Source: a virus
Virus record (IMG/VR): IMGVR_UViG_3300025120_000603
Location: 1 to 22,755 of that record
Strand: one strand, 5' to 3'
Length of the DNA stretch: 22,755 nt
The position numbers and the translations under genes were made by a program. Below, piece by piece: positions 1,484 through 21,277 of the stretch (its first letter is position 1; each line of letters opens with the position of its first letter). A model generated the notes under the pieces. It was not told where the DNA came from and did no database searches. It saw only the letters and a program-made list of their open reading frames with translations.

Positions 1484-1496
1484 TAAACTTTATTTT

Positions 1497-2726: not shown

Positions 2727-2735
2727 TATAAATAT
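2727..2735 (-). promoter_or_regulatory. ATATTTATA motif upstream of S74 fibre gene
   Basis: Exact copy of the 9-mer found in three other gaps. Its 3' end is 3 nt before the ATG at 2723, and its 5' base overlaps the stop codon of the upstream gene. This is too close for an ordinary -10 element of the 408-aa gene unless the message starts inside the gene, so it is the weakest of the four as a promoter. Confidence 0.25.
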
Positions 2736-3745
2736 TATAAATCTAAATTAACTAATACAGTAGTATCAGTAATGTTTGAACTTTGTAAAGGTTGTGATAA
2801 TTTTCCTACAGCTACTAATTGATTTGCTCCATTATATAATCCAACAGTTGTAATATAGGGTTCAAAATATGATCCTGTTAAAAAATCATAAGGTATTCCA
2901 CTATTAGTACTTCCGGAAATAGCCGATGGGTTTTGAGTATATGTAAATTCATTTGGGGAAAAAGTACATTTATATTGTGACTCAAATATAGTCATTGTGC
3001 TTTGAAATGAACAAGTAACACTTGAAGATGAAATAAAGAAATTTAAATCATTTGTATTTTTTATACTATATCTTGCAGTTCCATATCCTAAATTAAATGA
3101 ACTATTTGGTCCGTAGCGACTTCCAGTAATAGAAGATCCTGCGGATGTAATAATAGCCATTCCATGTTGGTATACTATATCTCCAATTTTTTCACCACTT
3201 TCAAATAACCCACCATCTCCATCGTCAGTAATAATACCACTTACTGTTATAACATTAACCCCAGTATTTAAGGTTCCATTATATTCATATTTAAAAGTTC
3301 CGGGTTTGATGTATTCTCCAAATAAATTAGAAGGTATAGATATAACTCCTATTTCATCATTTGATGATGTTGGGAATAACCTATTTGCAGTTAATGTATT
3401 ATCTAAATAATTTTCATACATAGGTTGATATGAACCACTATTACCCTGTACTGTTATAGTACCATCAGAATTGAATTGGGGTAAGTTTGCAGGAGAACCA
3501 TTCCTACCATTTACAAAATTAGAATAATATAATTGTTTAGCTGATTGGTATATTAAAGCTTGGGATTGGGAAAGAATTTGACCTGTTAAATCTGACCCAG
3601 ATATATAAGGGGTATTTTTTCCTATAAATCTATCTATACCTACATTAGAGCCAGTAAAAGCATTACCTTTAAAAGAAAAACTTTTGTTTACTTTAAAAGG
3701 TGTTACTACAACATCTGATGTGGTTAATGACTTGTAAACGCTCAT
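2735..3745 (-). CDS. Structural tail/baseplate-periphery protein, paralogue of the preceding gene
   Basis: A 336-aa protein of unknown exact role, related to the 337-aa product encoded immediately upstream. The C-terminal 70 residues (267-336) share the pattern F-x-Y-x-x-NPS-x-ISGST, then TTVG-[LM]-YN-x-AN-x-x-[VI]-AV-x-KLS-x-P and a final V-x-LD-[LF]. Weaker resemblance continues into the middle (an I-x-PGTF block near residue 158). No signal peptide, membrane segment or enzyme motif is visible, and the composition is Ser/Asn/Gly/Thr-rich like the other tail proteins here. I remember C-termini of this pattern from marine phage structural proteins. The position between the large baseplate-associated proteins and the fibres suggests a connector or a baseplate-rim component; that is inference. 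It lies 5 nt after its paralogue, with no Shine-Dalgarno. Confidence 0.72.
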   Translation of the reverse strand: MSVYKSLTTSDVVVTPFKVNKSFSFKGNAFTGSNVGIDRFIGKNTPYISGSDLTGQILSQSQALIYQSAKQLYYSNFVNGRNGSPANLPQFNSDGTITVQGNSGSYQPMYENYLDNTLTANRLFPTSSNDEIGVISIPSNLFGEYIKPGTFKYEYNGTLNTGVNVITVSGIITDDGDGGLFESGEKIGDIVYQHGMAIITSAGSSITGSRYGPNSSFNLGYGTARYSIKNTNDLNFFISSSSVTCSFQSTMTIFESQYKCTFSPNEFTYTQNPSAISGSTNSGIPYDFLTGSYFEPYITTVGLYNGANQLVAVGKLSQPLQSSNITDTTVLVNLDL

Positions 3746-3750
3746 TCATC

Positions 3751-4764
3751 TTAAAAATCTAGTTTTACTCTTATCAAACTTTCTTTAGTAAAATCTTTAA
3801 GTAAAGGAGTTGATAATTTTGCTACCGCTATGCATTCATTTGCATCATTATACATCCCTACTGTAGTCATGTATACTTGGGGGTTGTTTATAAAATTTGT
3901 AAAAGCTACTTGCCCTGTTGAACCTGATATAAATGATGGGTTAGTAGAATAATTAAATTCACTGTTTCTTGATCTACAAAAAATAAAATCAGATGTAATG
4001 GTTTCTTGAGAGTTCATTGTGAAGGATTCACCTGATTTAATTGCTGTAAACATTAAATTTGCATTGGAATAGTTAGAAGCAGGGGTTGATGATCTGTTAG
4101 GAGTTAGCCCAATTACAGCCTCAATTGCGGATGGATTCAATAATATTGTTCCTATATCTGGGAATAATAAACCATATGAGCCGGAACCTGGTTCATATCC
4201 TGTAGAATTGTAAGCTTTTCCATAAGAACCTGATACTATTTGAAATACTCTTGTAGATCCTAAAAATGTTTGAACTGTTACGTCAAGTGAATTATCTGTT
4301 AACTGAATCGTACTAGTATTATTTTTTAAAGTTAAATTAAATGTACCGGGAAAAATACTTTCTTTATACCTTGCTCTATCAGGGGAAATAACAAAAAAAT
4401 CATCAGGAGTGAGTGTATTTGAACCATCACCATATGTAAAATCAGTATTTTCATCTTCTAATATCATAGTTCTATATTGACCATATGAGGTTGCAGATGG
4501 AGTATATTGAGGAAAGAAAGGATTAAATGCTAAACTTCCACTTCCAAGCTTATTTCCATAAGCAACATCAAACTGTATAGCAGCATTTGGCTCAGTAGAA
4601 GCCGTTTGATATACACTTACATAGTAATTTCCTGATGTTCCTGCTAACTGTGCTGGGTTGGAGTAGAATTCTGTTAATGTTGGTTGGTTAGTTGACCATG
4701 CGGTCCCTTGTACTGAATCAGAACTTACTACAAAGTCTTCAGCGTCTAATCTTTTAAATCCCAT
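3751..4764 (-). CDS. Structural tail/baseplate-periphery protein, paralogue of the following gene
   Basis: A 337-aa protein whose C-terminal 68 residues (270-337) match those of the next gene's product (NPS-x-ISGST, TTVGMYNDANE, AVAKLSTP, RVKLDF). The block just before it also aligns by pattern (SF, a cysteine about 6 residues before [NS]-EF). An IFPGTF segment near residue 138 corresponds to IKPGTF in the paralogue, so the two are probably homologous over most of their length. The function is not known to me beyond being a conserved structural type in T4-like marine phages. No enzyme motif is visible. It sits 3 nt after the 223-aa gene, with ATG preceded by an A/T-rich leader lacking Shine-Dalgarno, and is likely cotranscribed with both neighbours. 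Confidence 0.72.
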   Translation of the reverse strand: MGFKRLDAEDFVVSSDSVQGTAWSTNQPTLTEFYSNPAQLAGTSGNYYVSVYQTASTEPNAAIQFDVAYGNKLGSGSLAFNPFFPQYTPSATSYGQYRTMILEDENTDFTYGDGSNTLTPDDFFVISPDRARYKESIFPGTFNLTLKNNTSTIQLTDNSLDVTVQTFLGSTRVFQIVSGSYGKAYNSTGYEPGSGSYGLLFPDIGTILLNPSAIEAVIGLTPNRSSTPASNYSNANLMFTAIKSGESFTMNSQETITSDFIFCRSRNSEFNYSTNPSFISGSTGQVAFTNFINNPQVYMTTVGMYNDANECIAVAKLSTPLLKDFTKESLIRVKLDF

Positions 4765-4767
4765 ATT

Positions 4768-5439
4768 TTATGAATTTGTTGTTGTTTGATTTATTGTAAT
4801 AGGTATTGTTAATCTAGCTCCACTATCTAGCCCTACTACTGTTATTGTAGTAAATAATTGAGTACTACCTCCAAATAAAGTATTTACTGTGGTTGCAGTT
4901 AAATTAATTTGTGTACCTATTACAGTAGCAGATACATTAGTACCTAATGTTGTAGTTGAAGTAGTATTTTGATCTTGAGCAGCCGTACTTTGAACTCCTA
5001 CCCCATTAAATGTAGACATTGTTCTAACATCTGCTATAGTGGCTGTGTATCCTGAGGTTTCAAATGCTGTAGCATTACCTAAATAATTTAAAGTTTGTGG
5101 TGTTATTGCTATTGAAGCTCCTTGTTTTAAGGATATAGATGGAAATCCTAGATCTAATACAGGTAAAACTGCAGTTCCTCTTGGTAAAGTAGCAATTTTA
5201 TATTTCATTATTTGACTTTCATCCGGGAATGCTTCTAATAAAGGCATATTTTGGATTGCTTCTCCATAAAAAGCAGAACCTGATGTATTGCTTGGATTAT
5301 ATTGAGTATAGTCTATTTCATCATCTGCTAATGCAAATTGTGTTATTCTGAATGAACCATCATTTTGAGCCAATAGTTGTCTACCTTTTTTTGTTAAGAT
5401 AGCATCAACTGTTATTACTTGATTATTTAAATATCCCAT
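4768..5439 (-). CDS. Conserved phage structural protein (MGYLNN family)
   Basis: A 223-aa protein. Residues 1-105 carry a strongly patterned N-terminal region: VDAILTKKGRQLLA, ITQFALADDEIDY, GEAIQNMPLLEAFPDE, KYKIATLPRGT, then LDLGFPSI and ITPQTLNYLG. I recognise this as a conserved protein in tail gene clusters of marine T4-like phages, but I know no assigned function. The C-terminal half is Thr/Ser-rich, with alternating hydrophobics suggesting beta strands. Its TVVGLDSGA segment near residue 200 faintly resembles TTVGLYNGA of the 336-aa protein, so it may share a domain with that pair. It starts after the longest gap in the window (61 nt), which holds a putative promoter, and probably heads a transcript covering the left-hand tail genes. 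Confidence 0.75.
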   Translation of the reverse strand: MGYLNNQVITVDAILTKKGRQLLAQNDGSFRITQFALADDEIDYTQYNPSNTSGSAFYGEAIQNMPLLEAFPDESQIMKYKIATLPRGTAVLPVLDLGFPSISLKQGASIAITPQTLNYLGNATAFETSGYTATIADVRTMSTFNGVGVQSTAAQDQNTTSTTTLGTNVSATVIGTQINLTATTVNTLFGGSTQLFTTITVVGLDSGARLTIPITINQTTTNS

Positions 5440-5457
5440 TGTGTTTAATTATATGCG

Positions 5458-5466
5458 TATAAATAT
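5458..5466 (-). promoter_or_regulatory. Putative late promoter element ATATTTATA before the 223-aa gene
   Basis: Exact 9-mer in the 61-nt gap (5440-5500), with its 3' end 18 nt before the ATG at 5439. That spacing would give a short leader if the motif acts like a -10 element. The same 9-mer occurs in the other two longest gaps. It is the reverse complement of T4's late-promoter core TATAAATA. The rest of the gap is A/T-rich with no hairpin that I would call a terminator. Confidence 0.45.
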
Positions 5467-5500
5467 GTATATGTTTTGTTTCTAATCCAAATTATTTTCA

Positions 5501-8248
5501 TTAAGTTTTGTTACTTCCAAATTCTTTAGTAATAGATTCAATGTTATCCGTAATTTCTTTAGGGGTGAATTTATCTGCAAAGTATCCAGGTCCGACTCCT
5601 TTTAATTCATCTTGGATTACAACATATTCTTCTCCTGTTACTTGTTCCTTTCCAACCGCTAACCACACAAAAGCTCCTAACCCATTAGTTTGTGAATCTC
5701 TATATTGGTTATTATAAGTAGTAATTGAAGTTCCTATATTTATTACTTTAACTTTATTATCAAATATTGAGAATATCTTGAATTTTATAGGGGTTCCTCC
5801 AGTACCACCGAATTCTGAGGTTGGGATTACTATTACATCTCCAAATTCAAAATCTCCTTTTTGGGAATCTAAAAATACCCTATTTCCTGATGGTGAGCTA
5901 AGGATTTGAGTTTCATTTAATAAATCAATTTCTAAGATTACCTCTGGTCCTGGTCTTCCTTCTACACTTCCTGTAACAAAAAATGAACCTCCAAGGTTTC
6001 CATTATTAACATTAAAAGATCCTGAAGGAAAGGTTGGGAAAGTAGTTATATAAGCAGAACCTGATACAATATCAGGGTCAAATTTAACTGGAGGATAGAT
6101 AGTCATTATTGTAACTTTAGCATTCTTCTGAAAATCAGAATATCCATTTCCTAAAATTTCGTATACTCCTTGTGCAGCTAAGGGAAAATCATAATCGCCA
6201 TCTTCATTTAATTCATTATATCCATAATTCCAAGGTTTTAATCTTGAACCTTTAGTTAAAGCGTCTTCTAAAGATTGAGATGGACTAGGACTTTCTAATT
6301 CTCTATATAGTGTTATATATGCTCTTTCCGATAAATTCAATCCTGAATTAAGTGTATTTGAAAATATGTCTGCTTTCTCAACTACACCCCCTACTTGAAC
6401 AGCCCCTACAGCATTTAGTTTAGTTGAAGATATTGGACTATTTATATAACTATTATATGCATTTGGATAAGTAAACCCTCCCCAAAATATTAAGTCTCCC
6501 CTAGAGCTGTCTATATAAGCATATGACCCACTGAGTCTAGCTACTTCATTTGTACCCGCATTCTCTTGCATAGTTAAACCACCAGTATAAGATGAAGTAA
6601 ACATAAAATTAGGTTTTTCTGGGGTTGCCCACCCTGTTGCTAATATTTTTGAAGTATTAGGCATAATAGGATCTGCTATAGAATTAGCTGAATAATTTCC
6701 TAATTGAATTTGAGAGTTTTTTTTATTAGAACCATTTAAAATTTGATAAAATTCACCTCTAGATTGTTGCAATATATAATAATAATATGTTCTGGTGTAG
6801 ACGTTAACTGATCCATAGGTAGTGCTAACTGATCCTGTTACAAATGGTAGATCTAATGTTGAATTTGTATCTCTAAAACTTCGAATGACGGGTTGAGAAG
6901 TTGTTATATAACGTCCATCTGGGTATGGTTTCTTAATAGCATTTGAGGTTTTTTGTACTATTTTTACTTGATCTTTAGATGAAGCTTGTAGAATATTACT
7001 CATTTTTAATTGTCCATAATTTAATATCATTGGATAAGTAGAACTTCCCCATTCATATTCAAATATATTAATTTGTTCTTGTGTAATAGGGGAAACATTA
7101 CCAAAGGTTCCAACATTTATAGGACCTCCAAAAACAGTATTACCTGCATTTTCTTTATATATATTAACTCCACTGGATTGATTTTTACTTCCTAAATATC
7201 TACTACTTATTTGAGCATGGGAAGTGTAATAAGATTCTGGTACTTCTCCTCTTGCAGCTGTTCCACTAATTATTAAGTCTATATTAACAGGGATACTTGG
7301 GTTAGTTGAATAATCTATATCTTGTAAGAATGGGTTTGATGTTGTTTTACTTACATTATTTATTGTTACATCACAGTCACTACCTTCAAATCTTGATGTA
7401 AAATAAGGTTCTGGTACTGTTCCTATTGCTGGTCCTGTTGCTGTAGTTGAAGAAATATATATTTCTGATCCAGCAAGTATAGTAACAGGAGCATCTTGTG
7501 CCCCTCCTATTACTCTTACTTCTATAGAAGAACCTGGAGGTATATTTCCTACTGGCACATCAACATCAAATTCTAGTGTACTAGGATTTGGTGCACCTTG
7601 TCCAACATTGTTTGATAATTTATATAGATATGGATTTGTGCCATTAATTCCATTAAATACTGTTGCTATTGGATTTGGAAGTAAATCTGTAACTCCTGGG
7701 GGTATTATGTATATTCCAAACCAATTTGTTGTAAATACTACGTTGGTTGGGCTAAAAATTACTTTAGCTCTTATATTTAAAGTTTTTTGTGGTAATGTAT
7801 TTAATAAATATTTTTCATTTCTTTCATCATAAAAATTTGCAGTATCTTTACTAGAAGCTGCTATGGAAATATTATTAGAATTATACGGAGTTGGAAATAT
7901 TGCATATGCTGAAGCAGGTCCTATTGCAACTCCAGTATTTAAAGATCCTGTAAAACTATAATCTAAAGAAGCAGAATCATTTAAATCAGGTTCTTTAGAT
8001 GGAGGGTTTACAGTATATGTAAAATAGTTTCCAGAATCCGTAATACCATTTACAAGGAATACACTACTATTTCCATTAGAAAAGGGTATTGTAATTGTTG
8101 TTAAAGATTCTAATGTAGCAGTTAAATCTTCACCATTATCATTTATTTTAGAAATTTTTATATAATCCGGAACTACTCCAGGGGTTGAACCTGCACTACT
8201 ATATACATTAACCACACTGTCTTTATCTTTAATATAAACTTTAGCCAT
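5501..8248 (-). CDS. Large tail/baseplate structural protein, 915 aa
   Basis: A 915-aa protein that I do not recognise with a named function. It is rich in Ser, Asn, Thr, Gly and Tyr, has alternating hydrophobic stretches suggesting mostly beta structure, and shows no signal peptide or membrane helix. A compact segment near residues 575-600 (IDSSRGDLIFWGGFTYPNAY) and a following region about 620-700 (VGGVVEKADIF, LSERAYITLYRELESPS, YDFPLAAQGVYEILGNGYSD) look like ordered domains. The C-terminus is charged and helical (DKFTPKEITDNIESITKEFG). It sits 16 nt after the 1761-aa gene and precedes the 223-aa conserved protein, so it probably belongs to the outer baseplate or fibre-attachment assembly. 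By gene order it occupies the area of T4 gp8-gp10, but I see no similarity to those proteins. Confidence 0.7.
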   Translation of the reverse strand: MAKVYIKDKDSVVNVYSSAGSTPGVVPDYIKISKINDNGEDLTATLESLTTITIPFSNGNSSVFLVNGITDSGNYFTYTVNPPSKEPDLNDSASLDYSFTGSLNTGVAIGPASAYAIFPTPYNSNNISIAASSKDTANFYDERNEKYLLNTLPQKTLNIRAKVIFSPTNVVFTTNWFGIYIIPPGVTDLLPNPIATVFNGINGTNPYLYKLSNNVGQGAPNPSTLEFDVDVPVGNIPPGSSIEVRVIGGAQDAPVTILAGSEIYISSTTATGPAIGTVPEPYFTSRFEGSDCDVTINNVSKTTSNPFLQDIDYSTNPSIPVNIDLIISGTAARGEVPESYYTSHAQISSRYLGSKNQSSGVNIYKENAGNTVFGGPINVGTFGNVSPITQEQINIFEYEWGSSTYPMILNYGQLKMSNILQASSKDQVKIVQKTSNAIKKPYPDGRYITTSQPVIRSFRDTNSTLDLPFVTGSVSTTYGSVNVYTRTYYYYILQQSRGEFYQILNGSNKKNSQIQLGNYSANSIADPIMPNTSKILATGWATPEKPNFMFTSSYTGGLTMQENAGTNEVARLSGSYAYIDSSRGDLIFWGGFTYPNAYNSYINSPISSTKLNAVGAVQVGGVVEKADIFSNTLNSGLNLSERAYITLYRELESPSPSQSLEDALTKGSRLKPWNYGYNELNEDGDYDFPLAAQGVYEILGNGYSDFQKNAKVTIMTIYPPVKFDPDIVSGSAYITTFPTFPSGSFNVNNGNLGGSFFVTGSVEGRPGPEVILEIDLLNETQILSSPSGNRVFLDSQKGDFEFGDVIVIPTSEFGGTGGTPIKFKIFSIFDNKVKVINIGTSITTYNNQYRDSQTNGLGAFVWLAVGKEQVTGEEYVVIQDELKGVGPGYFADKFTPKEITDNIESITKEFGSNKT

Positions 8249-8264
8249 TATAATTTTTTATTTA

Positions 8265-11200
8265 TTATGATTCTAATTTAACTTTTACTGCAAATATTTT
8301 ATATTCAGTAGCTGACCATAAAACTTGAGTAGTTTCTTTAGGTATTGCAAATTTCCCAGTAAGTCCATTTAAATCCTGAACATAGAAATATACCCAATAG
8401 AACTTTGGAAGACCTTCTCCAACATTAGTTCCATCATATCCTATTTCTAAGTACCCATCAGTTGATATACTTATACTAAAATAACTATTACTTTGAGTAG
8501 TATTATCAACATCTACAGACCAAGCATTAACAGCATTTCCTGAACCAAACTCAGCCCCACCTCCAGCACTGACAAATTCAAGTGTTGAGAGAGATACTGA
8601 AGTTCCATCCAATATATCTGAACCAACTCCATTTCTAAATTGAGCTGCGGATTCTACTGCAGTTGGAGATGCTGAGTATCCATTGCTAAATGTTTTTACT
8701 GATGTACCATTAGTAAAAATACTATTATTACCTGGGTTTGGTGTTGGATTTGGTAATGAGATAGAGGAATCTAAAGAATAAAAGGTTGAAGCAATATTAT
8801 ATTCTGGTATTTTATTATATAAAGAATGAGTTATCCCAGATACAGCATATGGGAAGTTAATATCTATAGCAGGTTTAATATTGAAAGAGGCATCTCCAAT
8901 AACCGTTGTTCCCGCTGTTGTAATAGATGAAGTAATGTCAAAATTTAAATAAATATTATCTTTAGAATTTGATCTTTCAAGTACTTGGGGATTTGCATTA
9001 CGTTGGAATTTAATTCTGTCAGGATCACCAATAGTTGATCCTCCTTCTTTAGTTATGGTCCATTCACTAGTAACATCATTATTACCTTGAGTAATAACAC
9101 TTATATTATTTAAATCGAAATCATAAATAACATCACCAAATTGGTTGGTTGGAAGTAATCTAGTATATCCGTTACCCATATCCTGCTGAGAGCTTGAAAT
9201 ATCTATTATATCTCCATTATTAGTGCCTTCATTCCAGTTCCATATAAAATCTGTTGTTGGGCTAGTGTAATAGGCTATATCGGAAGTTGAATTGGAGACG
9301 GTGTTATATACTTTAAAACTTGTTGGTGTATTTGCAATTCCAGCTGATGTAGATTGAACCACAGTGTTACCTATTGTTTCACCTACACTATTTTTAGCAT
9401 AAGCTGTAATATAATAGGTTGTGGAGGCTATTAAACCATCAAAATCTCCATCAAAATTATTTGGAGGCAATAGTGGGGTTATAATTGTTTTTGGATTTAA
9501 TGTAACCGTAGAATTAGTTCCAAAGTAAAATCCTTTTTCTGTTAGGTTGCTACTTCCTGTAGAAGTAATATTTCCATCTACAATTATCTCAGTTTGGCCA
9601 ACAGAAGATGGAGTTAATGTTGTAACCGAGGGTGCAGATGGTGGTTGTGCGAATGATGTAAATATTGATATATATCCATTTTGAGGATCATTTGAAGTAT
9701 TAATAAAAGCTGATTGGGAGTATTCCAAATCAGAATACATTCTAATTTTGTAATTTGCTAATTGAAAATTTGTATTCTTAAATTGATCACATTCTTCATT
9801 TAATTCACCATTAGTAACTAATATATCAGAACCACTAAATTCTCCATTGTAAAACTCAGCTTGATCATCCTGTATTGTAGTTATGCTACCTGATAATGAA
9901 GGGGTTGTTACACTCCAGCTTTGGGTTATATTATATCTGTTATTTGGACCTTGTCCTAATGATCCAGATGGGGATGTTGTAGTACTATTAAATTCATTAA
10001 ATGAACCTCCAGCTCCTCCTGATATTGCAGAAATTGGAATTGATCCTGATATTAAAAGTTCTTCTTGGCTAACTTGAGGTTGAGAATATTTATTTCTTTC
10101 TAATAAATGTTGTTTAATTACTATACCAGATGCTAAACCTGTTCTAGCAGGTATAAAATCTTTTATCATTTTAAATAATGAATTGTCAAAGAATTTTATT
10201 AACCTAACAAAATCAGTTAAATCATATTGTTTAATATATTTTTTAAAATATTCTTCACTTAAATCATTTAAATCAGGGTAATTGTCTCCTGTGAATCTTT
10301 CAGATGGATCACCTATATAATCACCAATATTAAAATGACCCATTTGTCCTATAATATCATCATTAATTTGGTTTTGTGGAGAAAATGCTACTTCTAAATA
10401 GTTTATATTATCAGTATAGGATGCACTTGCTTCTGTTATTTGATTTAATTTACGTATTGGGGATAAAGTATTCCCTGTTGGTAAATGATCTTTTTCAGAT
10501 CTAATCTTATCTGTGATTCTATTTTTTATTCCTGCTGCTGGTTGGTCTAAAAAGAAATATTCAGTATTAGTAGAATATGAAGAAGTATTGTTAAAATAAA
10601 ACTTACTATCACTTGCAAAAGATGAAGTAGTAGTCCAAGATCCTGTTACTCTAGGATGGATTGAGGTTTGGTTTAAAGTTCCATCAGCCAATGAATTTGC
10701 TTTTACTAATTCACTTCCTAAAGCTGCTCTAAATATTAATTGGTCAGGTGCACTATTAATTCCATTACCTTCAAAAGATAAAGGATTCATTATAAAATCT
10801 TTAAATACACTTTCACTTATTATAGTATTGTAATATCTTATTTCTTGTAAAGATCCTGAAAATGAGGGTTGGGTAGATGAAGTAGCAAAGTATGCTATAG
10901 TAGATGTAGACCAAGTTCCTGAATTTATATTTGAAGATGAAATATAACCTATAGAAGTTCCATCATTTCCGTTGTATATTTTATTAGCAGCAGTTAATTC
11001 AAAACCATTTGAACTACCACTTGTTATCATTACGGACCACCAACCTTTATCAAAAAATGGTAAATATATGCTTGCAGAGTTATTAGCTGTAGAAGTATTT
11101 GGAATCCATTTTAGATTAGCGTATTGGTAATATGGATCTTTAATAGAACCATTATATAACGAACTACTTGTTAAACCCGATCCTGTATATTCTAAAACTA

Positions 11201-13550: not shown

Positions 13551-13551
13551 T

Positions 13552-14091
13552 TTATGTTTTTGCCCTCCTTAATTTATCTGCTGCTGCTGCTCCCTGTGAT
13601 TTTATTGAATTACTTGAAGAATCTATTTCAGATACTTTGTTAGAAAAGCTTTCAGCAATGCCTCCATTATTATTACTATTACCATTACTTCCTCTAGTGT
13701 TTGAGTTTGGATTAAGTCCTATATCAGCTAATTCATTAGTAGCAAGTGGATTTGGTAAAAGTGAGTTAACCGATTCTTGTTGGGATTGTAATAATTCCTT
13801 TCTTAAATTAGCTATTTCTAGTTGTAAAGCTTCTATTAATTCATTACCTTCATCAAAATTTATATATTCACTACTAGTTTTTATTAAAAATTCATGGGAA
13901 TTGGTTTCTCCTAATTCGTTTATTTGGTAGAATAATTCAGTATATAAATCAAAAAATTCTTGAACTGTAGGTTGGGCATCAAGTTGTTCTTGAATATTTT
14001 GTACTCCAAGTTCATTAAAAGAGGTATCTATAATTTTATTATAGGGTCTCTTAGCAAAAACTTCCTTATTTAATTTTATATTTTCTTCCAT
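13552..14091 (-). CDS. Coiled-coil structural or accessory protein, 179 aa
   Basis: Function unknown. Residues 1-75 form a patterned region (KRPYNKIIDTSFNELGVQ, TVQEFFDLYTELFYQI, TNSHEFLIKTSSEYINFDEG) that I remember from hypothetical proteins in marine T4-like phages. Residues 78-105 are a Leu/Glu/Gln-rich heptad-like helix (ALQLEIANLRKELLQSQQE) suggesting a coiled coil. After it comes a low-complexity Asn/Ser/Gly linker near 125-145 and a short basic C-terminus (ADKLRRAKT). The ATG shares one base with the stop of the 390-aa gene (TAATG). The giant gene starts 1 nt after its stop, so it is probably translated together with that gene. It could be a chaperone or assembly adaptor for the giant tail protein; that is only a positional guess. 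Confidence 0.68.
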   Translation of the reverse strand: MEENIKLNKEVFAKRPYNKIIDTSFNELGVQNIQEQLDAQPTVQEFFDLYTELFYQINELGETNSHEFLIKTSSEYINFDEGNELIEALQLEIANLRKELLQSQQESVNSLLPNPLATNELADIGLNPNSNTRGSNGNSNNNGGIAESFSNKVSEIDSSSNSIKSQGAAAADKLRRAKT

Positions 14092-15263
14092 TATAATGCG
14101 TTTACTACTTTAAAGTAATAACTATCATCTAATATAAGTGTAGAACCGTTAATGTTAGTTTTAATACAAACCTTATAATATCTTTCGGGTTCTAGACCAT
14201 TCATATACACATCAAAATAATTTCCTTCACTATCAGAACTTAATTGTGTATATAATGTACTATAATCTACGACAAATTCGTCGGTATCCAAATCTTTTAT
14301 AGCATAATATGAAGCTGTTGGTAAATAATCAGTTCCGGTAAATCGAGATGCAGTAGTCCACACAGCAGGTGGATATTTAGGTGCAACATTAAATCTAAAT
14401 CGGTTTACACTTTGTGGGGTAAATAAACCTGGATTTTCTGCTAATGAAGATACTAAATTAGTAGTTTTAACTATACTAGCAGTAGCGGAACCTGTTAATA
14501 CACTGTTATAATCTCTCCATTTAAATTCTAATTCTGGTGGGTATATAGTATTTGTATCAACACTATAAAACTGCATTACAGGTTGGATTTGAGTATTAGT
14601 ATTCCACTCAACATTATTTTCCCATTTTGTAATAAAACCATAATTAGGAAGTGAAGCAGAACTATTAACACCTAAAGAACTACTATACCATAATGAAACT
14701 ACAGTTTTAGCATTTACTTTTAAATCTTTACTTGTTCTTGTATCAAATGATTGTGTTACAGCATATAAAGTACCATCTGACCCACTATAATACCATGAAC
14801 CTCCACCTTGCATTACATAATTTAGATTTGTAGAACTTGTAATATAATGATTAGTACTATCTGAACCACTTAAAGTCCAAGATATACCTGAATTTTTAAA
14901 TTGGGGGGAATACCAATTAGTACCATCTGTAGTTAATGGTTGGTCTAAATATGTTCCTGTACCATTCCACCAATATTGAGCTGTGGGGTGTACTGAGAGA
15001 TCCGTTGATTCTACTACACCTTGGGCAGTTGCTATATATGATCTAAAATCTACATCCCATTGTTTTCCTTTAATTTTATTATTAATAACATCTTCTATTT
15101 CATCTTGAACAAATTCTGTTAGAAATCTTGCTACTTGGGGATTAGATGCTACAGCTATATTTAAATTAGAAATTTGGGTAATAGGATCTATTCCCGTATT
15201 CATATCAGGGAAAAATGAATATAATGTAGCGTCTTTATATGGAAAAAGTTTATATACAGCCAT
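14091..15263 (-). CDS. Structural tail/baseplate protein, 390 aa
   Basis: A 390-aa protein beginning MAVYKLFPYKDATLYSFFPD. This opening resembles phage structural proteins with DNRLRE-type beta domains, where an N-terminal strand pattern K-D-[AT]-[TF]-[LI] is followed by a small G/N-rich turn. The middle is rich in Trp, Tyr, Ser, Thr and Gly (WWNGTGTYLDQP, GGGSWYYSGSDG), as in beta-sandwich or carbohydrate-binding-like modules. The C-terminal part has FRFNVAPKYPPAVWTTASRF and MNGLEPERYYKVCIKT, the latter like the last strands of an Fn3 fold. No catalytic motif is seen. It starts 3 nt after the 161-aa gene and overlaps the 179-aa gene by one base. The placement just after gp6 suggests a wedge or baseplate-peripheral part. 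Alternative: a fibre-attachment protein. Confidence 0.7.
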   Translation of the reverse strand: MAVYKLFPYKDATLYSFFPDMNTGIDPITQISNLNIAVASNPQVARFLTEFVQDEIEDVINNKIKGKQWDVDFRSYIATAQGVVESTDLSVHPTAQYWWNGTGTYLDQPLTTDGTNWYSPQFKNSGISWTLSGSDSTNHYITSSTNLNYVMQGGGSWYYSGSDGTLYAVTQSFDTRTSKDLKVNAKTVVSLWYSSSLGVNSSASLPNYGFITKWENNVEWNTNTQIQPVMQFYSVDTNTIYPPELEFKWRDYNSVLTGSATASIVKTTNLVSSLAENPGLFTPQSVNRFRFNVAPKYPPAVWTTASRFTGTDYLPTASYYAIKDLDTDEFVVDYSTLYTQLSSDSEGNYFDVYMNGLEPERYYKVCIKTNINGSTLILDDSYYFKVVNAL

Positions 15264-15266
15264 GTT

Positions 15267-15752
15267 TTAAAATGTTGAATTATCTGGTAATGTTTCTGGG
15301 GTAAATGAATTTTCGTATTTGTTTCCAATTGAAGGTAAGTATCGGTGTAACATAGTATTAACAATAACTCCCTTTGTATCCATTAAAGGGCCCGTTGGAG
15401 TTTCTGTTTGGTATATACCTGAAGGAATATTATGAGCACCCGCAGTTGTTCTATTAGGACCTCCATCAGGGTTAGGATTTTCAACATCTAAACTGGTTCC
15501 TCCTGGGGTTTTGTTAAAAATGTTTTGGGGTGAAAGTTGAGTTCCATTTATACCATATGCACTATTAGGGCTTGCTTCTTCTTGATAATTATCTAAATAA
15601 GTATTACTTGGAGAATATTTATGATCATGGTTATATTGTGGAAAACTATTAGGTCCTCCTAAAGGTCGAGGATTATCAACATCATAACTAGTTTGATTAG
15701 CTGATCTAAAAGTATTATTTATTGCAAAAGGGTTTATTGGTGCTAAAGCCAT
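15267..15752 (-). CDS. Pro/Asn/Gly-rich repeat protein, 161 aa
   Basis: Unassigned function. The distinctive feature is a duplicated 12-residue motif: DVDNPRPLGGPN at residues 24-35 and DVENPNPDGGPN at 89-100. Each is preceded by [T/G]-T/S-S-[YL] and followed by a His-containing segment. The protein is low in charged helices and probably extended. Near the C-terminus VIVNTMLHRYLPSIGNKYE may be a short ordered element. It lies 12 nt downstream of gp6 and 3 nt before the 390-aa gene, so it is likely a small virion component. Extended Pro/Asn/Gly proteins in baseplates often act as linkers between wedge subunits, but nothing here proves that. Confidence 0.68.
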   Translation of the reverse strand: MALAPINPFAINNTFRSANQTSYDVDNPRPLGGPNSFPQYNHDHKYSPSNTYLDNYQEEASPNSAYGINGTQLSPQNIFNKTPGGTSLDVENPNPDGGPNRTTAGAHNIPSGIYQTETPTGPLMDTKGVIVNTMLHRYLPSIGNKYENSFTPETLPDNSTF

Positions 15753-15764
15753 GATTTTTAAATT

Positions 15765-17621
15765 TTATAGTGGTACTACTTTTCCTATAATATCAGTATT
15801 AGGATATTTAATTTCAAATATACTTGCATCTAAACTAGGATATATTATTTGGTTTTGGGTTGCTCCTTCTACATCATAAGCATATTGAGAATATCCTGAA
15901 GAGGTTCCTGCTTTATTTGATATAAAAATATTTTTAACTGTTTGAACTCCTTCTATTTTATCTAATCTAACAAATATTTCATTTACCATAATAGGTTGAT
16001 TTACCTGCCAATTATTTATATTAAAGTATTCTTGTAAAGATTCGATACAAGATAATATTACTTGACTATTTATAAAATTAGGTAATACTATTATTTCAAA
16101 ATTTAATTTAATGTTTATTATGTATACATCTTTTATTTCAATACTATCACCAACCATTTTATACTGGGAGAGATAAGTTCTTAAGTTTTTCTTTAAAGCT
16201 TCAGTAGCTGTAGCAAATTGACCTTCACTATTTTGTGATAAAATATATAAACATAAGGTTTCAAGTGTAGCTGATTGGTTATCTAATTGTGGTTTTTCAA
16301 TATATGCTTTAGATACTACACCAAATTCAGAAGGCATACTTAAAGATCTAATCATATAATCATCTAAGGTAACTGTTCTTTGTTGAGTTGTAGTTTGGAT
16401 TATTGTGTTTTGTCTTATTTCTTCATCTGTATCTCCTCCTCTACCTCCAGAAGCAGCGTCTGAATTAAGAGATGCTAGAGTTCCAAATATATAGTTTGCG
16501 GTGTTACTATCTAAGTTAATAGTATTAAATGTTGTATTAGTAGTATCTAAGGTAGTTAAATCCCCTCCAGGGACATTAGATTCAACACCACCACCTGTTA
16601 GATATCTTACTGTTAAAGTAGTACTAGAAGGTGCTATACCATAAGTATCTGTAAATAAGAAATTTGTAGGTGAGTAAGCAGTTGTAAGTTTGTTTTGGTT
16701 AAATGGTAAGCCTATACCTACATTATTAGGATTAGGTATTATTACCTCATCTATATCATTAGGGTTCCCAGCCCCAAATTGAATTTGTAGGTTTGTTTCA
16801 GAAGTGTGTCTTGTAGCAAAACGTCTTTGCACTTTTTTAAGTTGGAGAAGGAATGGTACATCTCCTGCATCTGCTACATTATTAGGATCATTTACATTAG
16901 TATTAGCTATATTATCATAAACCATTTCTTGACCTAGATAATCTACTTCATACCATGTATTACCATCTGAATCTATTATATCTAGTATTCCTATTATATT
17001 ATTTGAAGTAATATTAATTGTTTGAAATTGTTGTGGGGTTGTAAATGCAAAAGTTTCTGTATTGACGTTTGCAGAAATAGCATTTCTTTTTTTTGTTAAA
17101 AGATAATATTCTGGGTTATCTCCTGATATTTGGTATATTTGAATTGTAGTAGGATCTAAAGAACTAGAGATGGTAAAATCGCAACTGTCTTCAATTAAAA
17201 ATCCTATGTTTGGGTTTAATGAAGAAGCTATAGTGCTATTTTCTCCTATAGTTAAAGCATAATCAAAATCAGGTACATATTCATTACCTACTAATTTTGA
17301 TGGAATTTGTTGATATAAATCTATTGTAACTTGAGCTGCTCCTGTAGATTTTGGTTTATATCCAAACATATAAGCCAATTCATATAAGTTATTTGTTTGT
17401 CTAGCAAATTGAGTAAATGTTTCTTGTAGTTGGTTATCTAAATAAAATGACATTACATCACCTACGTAAGCTGCTTGTTCCATAAACATCATTCCAGGTG
17501 ATGTTGGAGTAAAATCATTGTAGGTGTTAGGGAAATAAGTCTGTGAGAACTCTACTAATTTAGCTCTAATATCAGAGAAATCTCTGTTTAAATATTTTAC
17601 GTCTCTATCTACTGTTGTCAT
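15765..17621 (-). CDS. 6: Baseplate wedge subunit gp6-like
   Basis: T4-type baseplate wedge protein gp6, a subunit of the ring that holds the wedges round the hub and transmits the sheath-contraction signal. Length is 618 aa versus about 660 in T4. N-terminal part: VKYLNRDFSDIRAKLVEF followed by TPTSPGMMFMEQAAYVGDV and SFYLDNQLQE, the usual opening of gp6 homologues. The Baseplate_J-type core is near residues 385-415, with GGRGGDTDEEIRQN followed by QRTVTLDDYMIRSL, matching the family pattern GG-x-D-x-E-x-x-R ... R-x-VT-x-x-D. The C-terminal domain (about 480-580) has the alternating pattern found in wedge gp6 dimer regions. Its ATG shares a base with the gp25 stop (TAATG), so the two wedge subunits are probably translationally coupled. 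No frameshift or missing block was seen. Confidence 0.92.
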   Translation of the reverse strand: MTTVDRDVKYLNRDFSDIRAKLVEFSQTYFPNTYNDFTPTSPGMMFMEQAAYVGDVMSFYLDNQLQETFTQFARQTNNLYELAYMFGYKPKSTGAAQVTIDLYQQIPSKLVGNEYVPDFDYALTIGENSTIASSLNPNIGFLIEDSCDFTISSSLDPTTIQIYQISGDNPEYYLLTKKRNAISANVNTETFAFTTPQQFQTINITSNNIIGILDIIDSDGNTWYEVDYLGQEMVYDNIANTNVNDPNNVADAGDVPFLLQLKKVQRRFATRHTSETNLQIQFGAGNPNDIDEVIIPNPNNVGIGLPFNQNKLTTAYSPTNFLFTDTYGIAPSSTTLTVRYLTGGGVESNVPGGDLTTLDTTNTTFNTINLDSNTANYIFGTLASLNSDAASGGRGGDTDEEIRQNTIIQTTTQQRTVTLDDYMIRSLSMPSEFGVVSKAYIEKPQLDNQSATLETLCLYILSQNSEGQFATATEALKKNLRTYLSQYKMVGDSIEIKDVYIINIKLNFEIIVLPNFINSQVILSCIESLQEYFNINNWQVNQPIMVNEIFVRLDKIEGVQTVKNIFISNKAGTSSGYSQYAYDVEGATQNQIIYPSLDASIFEIKYPNTDIIGKVVPL

Positions 17622-18028
17622 TATATGAAGTCTATTTCTAATGTATCGCTAATATTAGTGTTTATTACACTATAAATTAAAGATACGGTTATTGTGTTTA
17701 AATCTTCTTGTCTTAATATTTCTAAATTTCCTATAACTACATTTGGGAAAAATTCTTGAAGTTCACTTGTAATTCTTTCTTCAAGACCATCTAAATTATT
17801 ATCTGCGATTTGTTCAAAAACAAAATCTCTTAACCCACCACCAAATGTAGGATTTAAGGGACGTTCTCCTGGGTTAGTTAAAAAATAGTTTATTAAATTA
17901 TTTTTAATAGCAGCTCCTGTTGTATAGTTAGGTCTAAAACATGAAGGAGCATTAAAGGGTATATCTACTCCTACAGCTGCACTTTTGTCAAAGTCTATGG
18001 GTGATATTTGTTGCGCTCCAAATGCCAT
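17621..18028 (-). CDS. 25: Baseplate wedge subunit gp25-like
   Basis: Small wedge protein of the GPW/gp25 family, 135 aa versus about 132 in T4. In contractile tails and type VI secretion it sits in the wedge core and starts sheath assembly. The family hallmark is clear at residues 52-66: NPGERPLNPTFGGGL, with the conserved E-R-P (55-57) and the G-x-G turn, followed by RDFVFEQIAD. The C-terminal half has the usual strand pattern: EERITSELQEFFPNVVIGNL, then ITVSLIYSVIN and a final TLEIDF. It has one-base TAATG overlaps with both the 123-aa gene upstream and gp6 downstream. Together with gp6 it is the firmest evidence that this is a contractile-tailed phage. Confidence 0.94.
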   Translation of the reverse strand: MAFGAQQISPIDFDKSAAVGVDIPFNAPSCFRPNYTTGAAIKNNLINYFLTNPGERPLNPTFGGGLRDFVFEQIADNNLDGLEERITSELQEFFPNVVIGNLEILRQEDLNTITVSLIYSVINTNISDTLEIDFI

Positions 18029-18399
18029 TATTTAGTCATTAATCCCATTATTTGGTCCATATTTACTTCTCCTCCTGGTAGTGCTCCACTTGGTGATGTT
18101 GTATCGCCTTGACCTTGTGGATTAAAGGGTTTGTTACCAAATCCTTGAGCATCTCCACTTTTCATATTTATTCCTGTTTCTCCTAAAATATCCATATATT
18201 TTTGTCTTTGTTCAACTAAGGAATGTTTGGGGGTTTGTGTAACAGGTGCATGTGTAGTTGATGTAATACTTTCTTGTATTGGTTGTGTAACTATAGCTTT
18301 AGGTGCTTTAACTGCTTCTAATAAAACTTCCTTTAGCTCCTCTTGTATAGCCTCTCTAACGGCTTCTTTAATTATTTTTTTAAGTGCTTCGGTTTTCAT
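18028..18399 (-). CDS. Small helical protein with disordered linker, 123 aa
   Basis: Unassigned. Residues 1-33 form a strongly amphipathic, charged helix (MKTEALKKIIKEAVREAIQE, LKEVLLEAVKA) with heptad-like spacing, probably a coiled coil or oligomerisation segment. A Thr/Pro/Gln-rich linker follows at about 35-58. A short conserved-looking block HSLVEQRQKYMDILGETG lies near 59-76, then a Gly/Pro/Ser/Gln-rich stretch and a C-terminal VNMDQIMGLMTK helix. This layout resembles small virion or scaffold-like proteins in T4-like gene clusters, but I do not know its role. It is the first gene after a 25-nt gap with an ATATTTATA motif, so it may start the gp25-gp6 transcript. Its stop overlaps the gp25 start. 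Confidence 0.66.
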   Translation of the reverse strand: MKTEALKKIIKEAVREAIQEELKEVLLEAVKAPKAIVTQPIQESITSTTHAPVTQTPKHSLVEQRQKYMDILGETGINMKSGDAQGFGNKPFNPQGQGDTTSPSGALPGGEVNMDQIMGLMTK

Positions 18400-18411
18400 A
18401 ATTGTGTTTGT

Positions 18412-18420
18412 TATAAATAT
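18412..18420 (-). promoter_or_regulatory. Putative late promoter element ATATTTATA before the 123-aa/gp25/gp6 block
   Basis: Exact 9-mer in the 25-nt gap 18400-18424, with its 3' end 12 nt before the ATG at 18399. A leader of a few bases would remain if transcription starts 6-8 nt after the motif. The gap is otherwise A/T-only. It is the same sequence as at 5458-5466 and 21269-21277. Confidence 0.42.
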
Positions 18421-18424
18421 TAAA

Positions 18425-19618
18425 TTAATCTGCTTTTAAATCATTTGTTTGAATATAATATACTAATTCGTCTATTAAAATTTGGTCATTTGATGAGAAT
18501 GAAGGTTCGCCTTCTAACATTATTACTCCTGCTTTATTTCTAGCTATAGCTTTTCTACGTTTTAAACCATCAACACTAGAATTATCTACGGGTATTACAT
18601 CCATTTTAAACCCATTAACATTAGTAACTACTGGGGATAATTGTTCAGATTGTTTTTGGGTAGCTTCTAATAAATCGGATGATAGTTGTTCTTGAGAAAT
18701 TAATGTTTCTCCTGAAGATGTAACTGATAAAGCGCACCCACCAATTAAGGTGTCTAATAAAGCTAAGAAATTTAATACTCTTTGGAGTTCTTCTATTAAT
18801 ATTATTACTACTACTAAAGTATTATTAGAAACTACTCTTAATTTAGCTACAACTTTATCAATTTTTTCTATTATAAATTTTATTGGTTGACCAAAATTAG
18901 GAGCTCCAAAACCTGAAATAGGGAAGAATAGAAATACGGGTGTAATGGAATTTACTACTATATCAAGTGCAGTTACCACCCCAGCTATTGAGGATACTAC
19001 TACTCTTACAGTTTTTAAAAATTTCATTATATTGTTTAAAGCTTTAGTTAAGTTATTTTTTTTTCTAATAATATTATTTAATTCTCCTGAGTTAATAGGG
19101 CATGTTGCATTCATACTACTAAATTCTTGACCTATAAAATCGCTAGCATTTGGAATCCCAAAATCAGCTATTAAGGTGAGTACTTGAGGAATTAAAACTG
19201 TTTTAATTTGAACAATTACCCTATTCATAGCTTGTTGTTTAGCTACTTCAAGGTTCATTTTAGATGCCTTCATTATTCCCATTTGTACAGCAGTAAATGC
19301 AATTTGTTTGTCTATAGATTGCCTTAAATCCGCCTTTGAATCTTTTAGTGTTATAATTCCAATTCTTCCTTGGTTTTTTAACTCCTTTGACAAATTAAAT
19401 GGGTTTATCTTTTTTTGAGTATAGTTCTTAGAAAATATATTTATTTTAAACATTTCTCCAGGAGTGTATTCTCCTGTTAGACTGAAATTACCATCAGTAC
19501 CCGTTATAGCAGTATCACCTAAAGTAGAAGTAATTGTAGTCCCTGGGATTGGTTGTTGGTTTTTATCTATGATTTGACCTATTATTATATATCCTATGGG
19601 TGGGTTTGGGTTAGCCAT
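18425..19618 (-). CDS. Tail/baseplate protein with carboxypeptidase-regulatory-like N-terminal domain, 397 aa
   Basis: Residues about 8-80 read as a transthyretin-like (CarboxypepD_reg-type) beta sandwich: YIIIGQIIDKNQQPIPGTTI, then ITGTDGNFSLTGEYTPGE and FKINIFSKNYTQKKI. This domain type is very common in Bacteroidota surface proteins, which supports the host guess. Residues about 80-190 are helical (ADLRQSIDKQIAFTAVQMGI, VIVQIKTVLIPQVLTLIADFG). Residues about 190-300 are strikingly hydrophobic, with helix-like runs (VRVVVSSIAGVVTALDIVV, FLFFPISGFGAP, TLVVVIILIEELQRVLNFLA). The C-terminus is polar, with KRRKAIARNKAGVIMLEGEP. The hydrophobic part could be an internal tail-tube or hub segment, or membrane-inserting during infection. 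It is coupled by TAATG to the putative hub/spike gene upstream, so a hub-associated role is plausible. I cannot name a T4 counterpart. Confidence 0.68.
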   Translation of the reverse strand: MANPNPPIGYIIIGQIIDKNQQPIPGTTITSTLGDTAITGTDGNFSLTGEYTPGEMFKINIFSKNYTQKKINPFNLSKELKNQGRIGIITLKDSKADLRQSIDKQIAFTAVQMGIMKASKMNLEVAKQQAMNRVIVQIKTVLIPQVLTLIADFGIPNASDFIGQEFSSMNATCPINSGELNNIIRKKNNLTKALNNIMKFLKTVRVVVSSIAGVVTALDIVVNSITPVFLFFPISGFGAPNFGQPIKFIIEKIDKVVAKLRVVSNNTLVVVIILIEELQRVLNFLALLDTLIGGCALSVTSSGETLISQEQLSSDLLEATQKQSEQLSPVVTNVNGFKMDVIPVDNSSVDGLKRRKAIARNKAGVIMLEGEPSFSSNDQILIDELVYYIQTNDLKAD

Positions 19619-20898
19619 TATATTGTTTTACTTACACTAGATAAAATAGGTGTATTATCATTATCATCTTTTGTTACACTTGCTAGTACGGCATTTAATG
19701 CTATTTCTGTGGTAGCTGCGGTTATAGATAATGGATTATCAGATACAACATCTCCAATAGTTACTTGCATTAGTTGAAGTTGTTGTACTAATTGTTTCAA
19801 GTTGGTACATAAATTAAATAATTCAACTCTTAGGGTTTCACCCTTTACAAGAGGTTCAGTTGCATCTTTACTTCCTAATTTTATAGTAGTTCCTACTTGA
19901 ATTACAAAATTTGAATTAGTATCAAAGTTAAACCCTTTAACAGCTTCAAAGCTTATTGTTCTTTTAGAACTTAACATTATATGGTCAGTTTTAGAATTAA
20001 AAACTAAACGACCTGAATTTATTATAACTTGATTTCCATTAAATAATGAGGAATTTGTTGGAGTTTCTCCAAATTTAGTGGTATATGAAGTATATCTTTT
20101 ATTATTAAAAAGTACAGGATTTGTTACTATGGGAATTTGTTGTGTAGATGTTAAGTATATGGAGGATAAATCTTTATTAATATTTTCTGTTATAGGTACC
20201 CATCCTTCTTTTGGAGTATTTGGATCTTGACCATTTCTTATCAAAGTAATAGGATCTCCATTTTTACCTGAATCTGACCAGTTGTTATATACTGTTAAAT
20301 CATTTGGTGGGTTATTTTTATTTGGATTTGCAGTACTACCAAATCTAATACTATTTCCCCATCTACCACTTTGTATCATATCTCCGGGGAGAGGTAAAAG
20401 AGGTTTAATATTTGATCTTTCAATAAAGGTATTTTGACTTAAATTAAAAGGGCTATTTAATGGGGTAGAATTTCCTTCAGTAGAGGCTAAATAATTTTGT
20501 TCTGGTTGATTTGGTTTTACTGGGTTAGGGAATGCATTATGGTGTGGGTTGTTCCAAATACTAAACATATTAAGATAATAGTAAGATTTACTGGATGTAT
20601 TTGATCCAATATTATTATTAGGACCCTCAATCAAAAATATTAATTCATTAATCAGTGGGTAAGTAGAATTATTAGGGTTAAAAGGCCTAGCAGTATTACC
20701 TGTATTTGAACCTTGTAAATCATCTATAGAATAAAAAATAGTTCCAATGCTAGAAAATCCTCCAAATTCAAAAAATCTAGGATGGTCTGGGTTTAGTATT
20801 ATATCTGTAACTCTTGCTATTTGAGTTTTATCATTTAAAGTAGAAAATGGAGAAGATAAACCATCAGGATATAATATTTTTTTGGATCTTTCAGGCAT
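19618..20898 (-). CDS. Putative baseplate hub/spike protein (gp5-like, no lysozyme domain)
   Basis: A 426-aa protein probably belonging to the central hub or spike. Residues about 25-65 (KTQIARVTDIILNPDHP, FSSIGTIFYSIDD) and 165-215 (LPGDMIQSGRWGNSIRFGST, then GDPITLIRNGQDP) read as OB-fold-like beta segments. I remember the GD-x-x-x-x-GR-x-GNSIRFGST pattern from marine T4-like phage structural proteins. GWVPITENINKDLSSIYLTS is at about 229-248. Residues 290-350 have repeating short strands (NQVIINSGRLVFNSKTDHIM, RTISFEAVKGFNF, IQVGTTIKLGSKDA), as in the beta-helical C-terminus of VgrG/gp5 spikes. The last 75 residues start helical and end in a polar tail. T4 gp5 has a lysozyme domain between the OB fold and the beta helix; I see no lysozyme motif here. 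It has TAATG overlaps with genes on both sides. A different tail structural role is possible. Confidence 0.62.
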   Translation of the reverse strand: MPERSKKILYPDGLSSPFSTLNDKTQIARVTDIILNPDHPRFFEFGGFSSIGTIFYSIDDLQGSNTGNTARPFNPNNSTYPLINELIFLIEGPNNNIGSNTSSKSYYYLNMFSIWNNPHHNAFPNPVKPNQPEQNYLASTEGNSTPLNSPFNLSQNTFIERSNIKPLLPLPGDMIQSGRWGNSIRFGSTANPNKNNPPNDLTVYNNWSDSGKNGDPITLIRNGQDPNTPKEGWVPITENINKDLSSIYLTSTQQIPIVTNPVLFNNKRYTSYTTKFGETPTNSSLFNGNQVIINSGRLVFNSKTDHIMLSSKRTISFEAVKGFNFDTNSNFVIQVGTTIKLGSKDATEPLVKGETLRVELFNLCTNLKQLVQQLQLMQVTIGDVVSDNPLSITAATTEIALNAVLASVTKDDNDNTPILSSVSKTI

Positions 20899-21248
20899 TA
20901 ATCTTCTTTTTTAGGTGGAAGTTGTAAATTATTTATCTCAGTTAAAAGTTGTTCTTTTTCTGCTTCTGAGATGCCAAATCCATTTTCTTCTGTACCTTCG
21001 TTTGCAAATATACGTTGGAATATTGTTGCTACTTTTATAAGCGCTTCATCGTTTTTAATGCCAAGTTCCATGTATTCTTTGATAAGCGGCACAATCATTG
21101 TAGCATCGCCTATATCGCTAATTAATGGTTTAAGCTCATTGATTAATGCGCTAATTTGTGTTTCTTTCTTCTTTTGATTATCGTAAATTTCTTTAAGTAA
21201 ATCCGAGTATGATTTTTTACCGAATACTTTTTTATCTAAATGACTCAT
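20898..21248 (-). CDS. Small helical phage protein, 116 aa
   Basis: Function unknown. It is nearly all helical and charged: residues 8-30 VFGKKSYSDLLKEIYDNQKK, then TQISALINELKPLISDIGDA, IVPLIKEYMELGIKNDEALI and KVATIFQRIFA. An acidic Glu/Lys-rich C-terminus follows. I remember similar sequences (VPLIKEY, GIKNDE) as hypothetical proteins in marine T4-like phages. Its size (116 aa) and place directly after the late sigma factor invite comparison with T4 gp33, the 112-aa late co-activator, but I can point to no shared motif, so no symbol is given. It follows a 35-nt gap with a putative promoter element and overlaps the hub/spike start by one base, so it may head the hub transcript. Confidence 0.68.
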   Translation of the reverse strand: MSHLDKKVFGKKSYSDLLKEIYDNQKKKETQISALINELKPLISDIGDATMIVPLIKEYMELGIKNDEALIKVATIFQRIFANEGTEENGFGISEAEKEQLLTEINNLQLPPKKED

Positions 21249-21268
21249 AGTTATACGTTTAGTTCGAG

Positions 21269-21277
21269 TATAAATAT
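21269..21277 (-). promoter_or_regulatory. Putative late promoter element ATATTTATA before the 116-aa gene
   Basis: Exact 9-mer in the 35-nt gap 21249-21283 between the late sigma factor gene and the 116-aa gene. Its 3' end is 20 nt before the ATG at 21248. The spacing fits a -10-like element with a leader of about 12 nt. It separates the regulatory group on the right from the structural genes on the left, a sensible place for a late promoter. Confidence 0.45.

Follow-up and report, generated by a model that had tools for sequence, protein, structure and literature searches.

Our results suggest that the nine-letter element ATATTTATA, which precedes four genes in the phage DNA studied here, serves a T4-related phage as the −10 element of its late promoters. 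It would be read by a phage-encoded gp55-type sigma factor, for which the product of gene 17 is the likeliest candidate. We put the probability of this reading at roughly 0.85. Together, the 8-mer TATTTATA and its reader very probably amount to a variant form of the T4 late-promoter/gp55 system, found in relatives of a Flavobacterium phage.

The whole stretch of DNA that was analysed (hereafter the window) comprises 22,755 nt with 31% GC. Every gene lies on the minus strand, and the intergenic DNA adds up to only 185 nt. The window encodes a T4-like baseplate and tail region, and the genes that matter for the argument are the following:

20898–21248, minus strand: gene 16, 116 aa
18028–18399, minus strand: gene 13
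17621–18028, minus strand: gp25-like baseplate gene
15765–17621, minus strand: gp6-like baseplate gene
4768–5439, minus strand: gene 5
1497–2723, minus strand: gene 2
within 2–2723, minus strand: tail-fibre-like genes 1 and 2

Judged by the gp6-like protein, the isolates closest to the window are Flavobacterium phage immuto (44% identity) and Microcystis phage Mel-JY01 (43%). At least 414 metagenomic viral stretches contain relatives of this protein, and at least 592 contain relatives of the gene 17 product. The immuto genome also carries QueC, QueD, QueE, FolE, QueF and DpdA, annotated as a group (18607–37015, L086), which suggests 7-deazaguanine modification of the phage DNA.

The element occurs at four positions in the window:

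21269–21277, minus strand: ATATTTATA, putative late promoter −10 element, in a 35-nt gap, 20 nt before the ATG of gene 16
18412–18420, minus strand: ATATTTATA, putative late promoter −10 element, in a 25-nt gap, 12 nt before the ATG of gene 13
5458–5466, minus strand: ATATTTATA, putative late promoter −10 element, in a 61-nt gap, 18 nt before the ATG of gene 5
2727–2735, minus strand: ATATTTATA, putative late promoter −10 element, in an 11-nt gap, 3 nt before the ATG of gene 2

The initial annotation had reported these four copies, their distances to the ATG, their location in the three longest gaps plus one 11-nt gap, and the lack of any further exact sense copy within genes. A count over the whole window agrees on each point: on the plus strand TATAAATAT, which is ATATTTATA on the transcribed minus strand, starts at 2727, 5458, 18412 and 21269 only, and sense coding DNA holds none. 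The opposite orientation occurs once, at 13135, within a 1761-aa open reading frame. When bases were shuffled inside the gaps, 0.04 copies were expected against the four seen, and none of 100,000 shuffles reached three. Since this 9-mer was picked after looking, a fairer test asks how often any 9-mer reaches at least four copies, which happened in ~4% of the gap shuffles. With such a post hoc chance the window by itself is suggestive, and genomes outside it were required.

The 21269 site has a counterpart before the orthologous gene in many relatives and, at 78885, in immuto, and the 18412 site is kept before the orthologous start (ATGAAAACC...) in most relatives. The 5458 site has an orthologous copy in immuto at 90661. 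Upstream of this box TTTGG stands at a sigma-A-like spacing, as it does in the relatives L042, L051 and L053, and the site is possibly a dual promoter in its subclade, with overlapping early and late elements. The 2727 copy overlaps the stop codon of the upstream gene 3 and has counterparts in a similar context in G001 (3 nt) and G023 (4 nt); we consider it a candidate leaderless promoter.

Across 81 loci, consisting of the window and 80 relatives with ~3% of their DNA intergenic, ATATTTATA was found 127 times between genes and 19 times in coding DNA, against 9 and 8 times for its reverse complement. This is the comparison of both orientations that the initial annotation had proposed. In two sets of loci that overlap in part, no intergenic 8-mers were more frequent than ATATTTAT and TATTTATA. 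In the complete 160-kb genome of immuto, ATATTTATA occurs 15 times between genes and once in coding DNA, and TATTTATA 25 times upstream of genes versus 4 times in sense coding DNA, a 114-fold enrichment. Sense copies of the T4 core TATAAATA, in contrast, number 8 upstream and 8 coding. Equal density in coding DNA, the result that the initial annotation had set against its own reading, is far from what we found in nine contigs of 50–106 kb, where TATTTATA was enriched upstream of genes 11 to 142 fold over coding DNA. Compared to TATTTATA, upstream sense copies of TATAAATA were rarer or absent in immuto and most contigs, and equally common in G024. The strand asymmetry of the motif relative to genes was strong both in immuto and in its relatives. 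Applied to a control region of T4, the same method found TATAAATA sites upstream of late genes, and some of the TATTTATA matches there stem from late boxes on the other strand, in gaps between divergent genes.

The immuto sites precede the genes for the terminase, portal protein (gp20), tail sheath, tail completion protein, baseplate hub and tape measure, as well as the orthologues of window genes 16 and 5. From the functions of these genes we infer that the genes preceded by TATTTATA are expressed late. An exact copy precedes 17 of the 35 immuto late-region genes examined; the other half or so, among them the major capsid gene, have none, and ~8 copies precede genes outside the structural region. 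At three places in immuto (MW353175; 43392, 118992 and 128572), terminator-like stem-loops with T-runs lie directly upstream of late boxes, as if they block read-through from the preceding unit before re-initiation.

Mel-JY01, whose reported host is a cyanobacterium, encodes a member of the gene 17 family and carries TATTTATA before its portal, tail-tube and neighbouring genes. Because Mel-JY01 keeps both in spite of a different reported host, the motif appears to follow the phage rather than the host. Most of its sites lie 31–52 nt upstream of the ATG, and some of its leaders contain Shine-Dalgarno-like sequences (L091, L092), which suggests that leader length adapts to the translation system of the host. 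LR756508, which is more distant, also encodes a homologue of gene 17, yet it has no clear motif and neither box; this limits the extent of the pairing between gene 17 and the motif.

The initial annotation had described the bases flanking the motif as not conserved, which does not hold over many sites. A logo of 75 non-redundant sites, in which only the flanks carry information because the sites were chosen by an exact TATTTATA, reads A(87%)/C(9%)-TATTTATA-NNN-A-A-A, with an A-run 4–6 nt after the box. In immuto, C precedes TATTTATA in 42% of the sites. No conservation was seen in the logo at the position of a −35 element. The A-run keeps a fixed distance from the motif, not from the ATG, and this distance is the one expected for a start one helical turn downstream of the box; a box at −12 to −5 or −13 to −6 would place the start site inside the A-run.

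The distance between motif and ATG ranges from 0 to 38 nt and is bimodal, with 3–5 nt in 25 of the 75 sites, 6–8 nt in 2, and mostly 9–22 nt in the rest (binomial P ~2e-4 for the trough at 6–8 nt within 3–11 nt). At the sites with 3–5 nt, the ATG sits where the conserved A-run would be. Most simply, these distances suggest that the mRNAs from such sites start with their AUG and that leaders of only a few nucleotides are avoided. Among the F. psychrophilum mRNAs with mapped starts, only 5.5% are leaderless (PMC9723704). The evidence for leaderless mRNAs is moderate, as four of the sites close to the ATG have a sigma-A-like TTG and the start codons come from a mechanical assignment.

The box and its surroundings resemble the late promoter of T4, in which a TATA box of 8 bp lies about one turn before the start, AT-rich DNA follows and no conservation is seen at −35 (PMC2988020). 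Shared features are an 8-bp AT-rich box before virion genes, the lack of a −35 element, an AT-rich downstream region, and a gp55-related sigma-2 protein, here encoded in the window. However, the box is not the T4 consensus core TATAAATA: in the same orientation, AA is replaced by TT at positions 4–5, and we therefore class TATTTATA as a variant that works like the T4 late box. Further differences from T4 are the preference for A or C before the box, the A-run at the presumed start and the many sites only 3–5 nt from the ATG. In KVP40, 44RR, S-PM2 and Aeh1, gp55 homologues read a late box of the same 8-bp type that varies from phage to phage (PMC2988020). The boxes of the first three are close to TATAAATA, and that of Aeh1 varies at its first two bases, in contrast to positions 4–5 here.

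If the motif was a late promoter, the initial annotation had argued, the phage would either use a changed −10 sequence or read the T4 box in the opposite sense. The changed −10 sequence is favoured by the distribution of the motif, its conservation before orthologues, its −10-only anatomy, the existence of a separate early class and the presence of a gp55-like gene. Since TATTTATA differs from TATAAATA only at positions 4–5, a reversed reading is not required. We reject use of the T4 box in the reverse sense, as the motif is directional and, read in the same orientation, only these two bases separate it from TATAAATA.

A second promoter class, TTG(G)-N20-TAnATTTA, occurs in the same phages, and we assign it to early genes. 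Among its 27 non-redundant sites, 18 have the TTG at one fixed spacing. Promoters recognized by sigma-A in Bacteroidota have a TAnnTTTG box at −7 and a TTG at −33 (PMC9723704); the early class shows both features, whereas the late logo lacks both. The AT-rich −10/−7 element is common to sigma-A promoters and the late class, but the latter is without the −33 element and the TTTG core. In immuto the early class clusters before small hypothetical genes at 60–76 kb, and most TATTTATA sites fall at 78–154 kb; in contig G025 the early class is found mainly at 1–13 kb and the TATTTATA class at 18–69 kb. About 20 repeats of TTG-N20-TAnATTTA, extended by GGTAT in immuto, precede small hypothetical genes (L087, which is immuto 49501–99500; G001, G023 and G025). 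A TTG within one base of the sigma-A spacing is present at nine of the 75 late-motif sites, which may work as dual promoters or as early ones.

An alternative explanation might be that the motif is a relaxed −7 element of the host sigma-A, of the TAnnTTTG type, used by unmodified host polymerase without any phage sigma factor. In line with this, TATATTTA(T) overlaps the early −7 box TATATTTA, and the nine sites just mentioned and the TTTGG upstream of 5458 would fit such a promoter. Yet the late sites show no overall conservation at −33, where the early sites so often do, and the C that precedes many TATTTATA copies in immuto removes the essential A of the TAnnTTT frame. Moreover, TATATTTG shows no enrichment upstream of genes, the TATA end and the downstream A-run are foreign to TAnnTTTG, and Mel-JY01 keeps the motif with a different reported host. 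We therefore consider this explanation improbable; host sigma-A on its own is disfavoured above all by the absent −33 element and the C-preceded immuto sites.

Likewise, the motif might have its role in the mRNA and not as a promoter, marking translation starts or RNA-processing sites. It does stand in A-rich leaders, near the start codon, and Shine-Dalgarno signals are missing in Flavobacterium (PMC6847099), but the wide, bimodal range of distances to the ATG, the long leaders of Mel-JY01 and an A-run spaced from the motif instead of the ATG are hard to reconcile with such a role. Furthermore, the motif is missing before most of the tightly packed genes and present in the longest gaps, so that a signal in the mRNA seems very improbable. 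The AT-rich composition of the intergenic DNA has the least to offer. Genomes in this group have 30–35% GC and A-rich gaps, and shuffles of the window did occasionally yield some 9-mer in four copies, but strand asymmetry, the large upstream enrichment, conservation before orthologous genes and fixed flanks leave a by-product of composition with a negligible probability; the independent genomes rule out a chance origin.

The candidate reader of the late promoter is encoded in the window itself:

21284–22018, minus strand: gene 17, 244 aa, putative gp55-family late sigma factor
21656–21970, minus strand: sigma region 2-like domain, gene 17 residues 17–121, aligned by hhalign to gp55 residues ~3–108 and matched by VIA to SigW
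21284–21601, minus strand: extra C-terminal domain, gene 17 residues 139–244, predicted with confidence

A search of the relatives for sigma families gave weak matches, all in one family of open reading frames, that of window gene 17. Sigma70_r2 was matched in 13 marine contigs and phrog_234 (gp55) in immuto26A_153, with every single-sequence match below the curated cut-offs. The standard gp55 profile phrog_12791 had no match in the relatives, and the gene 17 family, searched by sequence against the PDB, had none there either. Among 64 diverse family members, Sigma70_r2 was the commonest weak Pfam match (41/64), and phrog_234 was matched by 18/64 (E < 0.1). A profile-profile comparison with seven gp55 sequences gave E 2.8e-5, and a local hhalign rerun gave a score of 41.6 (E 1.2e-5); none of 60 column-shuffled controls exceeded 21.9, and the profile scored 14.6 when reversed. 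In a comparison based on family alignments that were built independently, gene 17 reached 33.5 against gp55, whereas the 18 remaining window families scored 25.7 at best.

The AlphaFold2 model of gene 17 is all helical, with a moderate pLDDT of 72.5. Foldseek hits were weak (best E 0.18), and nearly all structural matches were sigma factors. VIA placed residues 17–121 on the sigma-2 domain of SigW (Z 8.2; 3.1 Å over 93 residues) and also matched the N-terminal domain of SigE (2.3 Å over 79), which we take as supporting evidence only, as helical folds reach such Z-scores easily. The profile comparisons, the family matches and the predicted fold make it likely that gene 17, hitherto annotated as hypothetical, carries a gp55-type sigma-2 domain of remote homology, and it is now a candidate late sigma factor.

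T4 gp55 (185 aa) lacks the additional C-terminal domain of gene 17. Modelled alone, these 106 residues reached a pLDDT of 84.9, but neither Foldseek nor VIA found a convincing structural match; they gave no support for a sigma-4 domain, and the TFIIB-like rows were weak. In the gp55 family a short hydrophobic/acidic epitope at the C-terminus binds the clamp; the C-terminus of gene 17, LETGYIDFEK, is conserved and partly hydrophobic and acidic. T4 also uses gp33 and gp45, neither of which was recognized here: the gp45 clamp (PF02916) is absent from the records searched, and no window family resembles T4 gp33, although divergent versions of both may escape such searches. Comparison gave no support for gene 16 or any other window gene as gp33.

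We infer gene 17 as the reader of the motif, and likewise the start site, the leaderless state and the late timing, in the following scheme. The gp55-type sigma factor, most likely gene 17, would join the core of the host RNA polymerase, and this holoenzyme, independent of any −35 element, would open the DNA at [A/C]TATTTATA. Transcription would start at an A about one helical turn downstream, inside the A-run 4–6 nt after the motif. Where the motif lies 3–5 nt from the ATG, the ATG would take the start position and the mRNA would probably be leaderless. Early genes would use the separate promoter of the host sigma-A type, TTG-N20-TAnATTTA. Each copy of the motif would drive one block of tightly packed virion genes, delimited in the window by the sizes of the gaps between genes:

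18425–21248, minus strand: predicted late unit 1, genes 16, 15 and 14, tightly packed behind the 21269 promoter
5501–18399, minus strand: predicted late unit 2, genes 13 to 6, including the gp25-like and gp6-like genes, behind the 18412 promoter
2735–5439, minus strand: predicted late unit 3, genes 5 to 3, behind the 5458 promoter
2–2723, minus strand: predicted late unit 4, tail-fibre-like genes 2 and 1, behind the 2727 promoter

It is conceivable, though rather unlikely, that gene 17 is a single-chain late sigma factor, in which the gp55-like sigma-2 domain is joined to a domain that takes the place of gp33 or sigma-4, and perhaps of the clamp arm as well. Such a protein would read TATTTATA instead of TATAAATA and make a large share of the late virion mRNAs leaderless, in a Bacteroidota setting without Shine-Dalgarno sequences.

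In the freely accessible literature searched, we found no earlier description of TATTTATA promoters, of T4-like late promoters in Bacteroidota phages, of transcription in immuto or of Mel-JY01, nor any account of gene expression in these phages. Hundreds of metagenomic contigs encode relatives of the window proteins, and our results offer this uncultured virus group models of its early and late promoters, plus a candidate late sigma factor. A natural pair of sigma factor and −10 box that lies two positions from T4 makes the basis of promoter recognition by gp55 directly testable. A review of T4 asks why no fused late sigma factor exists (PMC2988020), and gene 17 is a candidate for such a protein.
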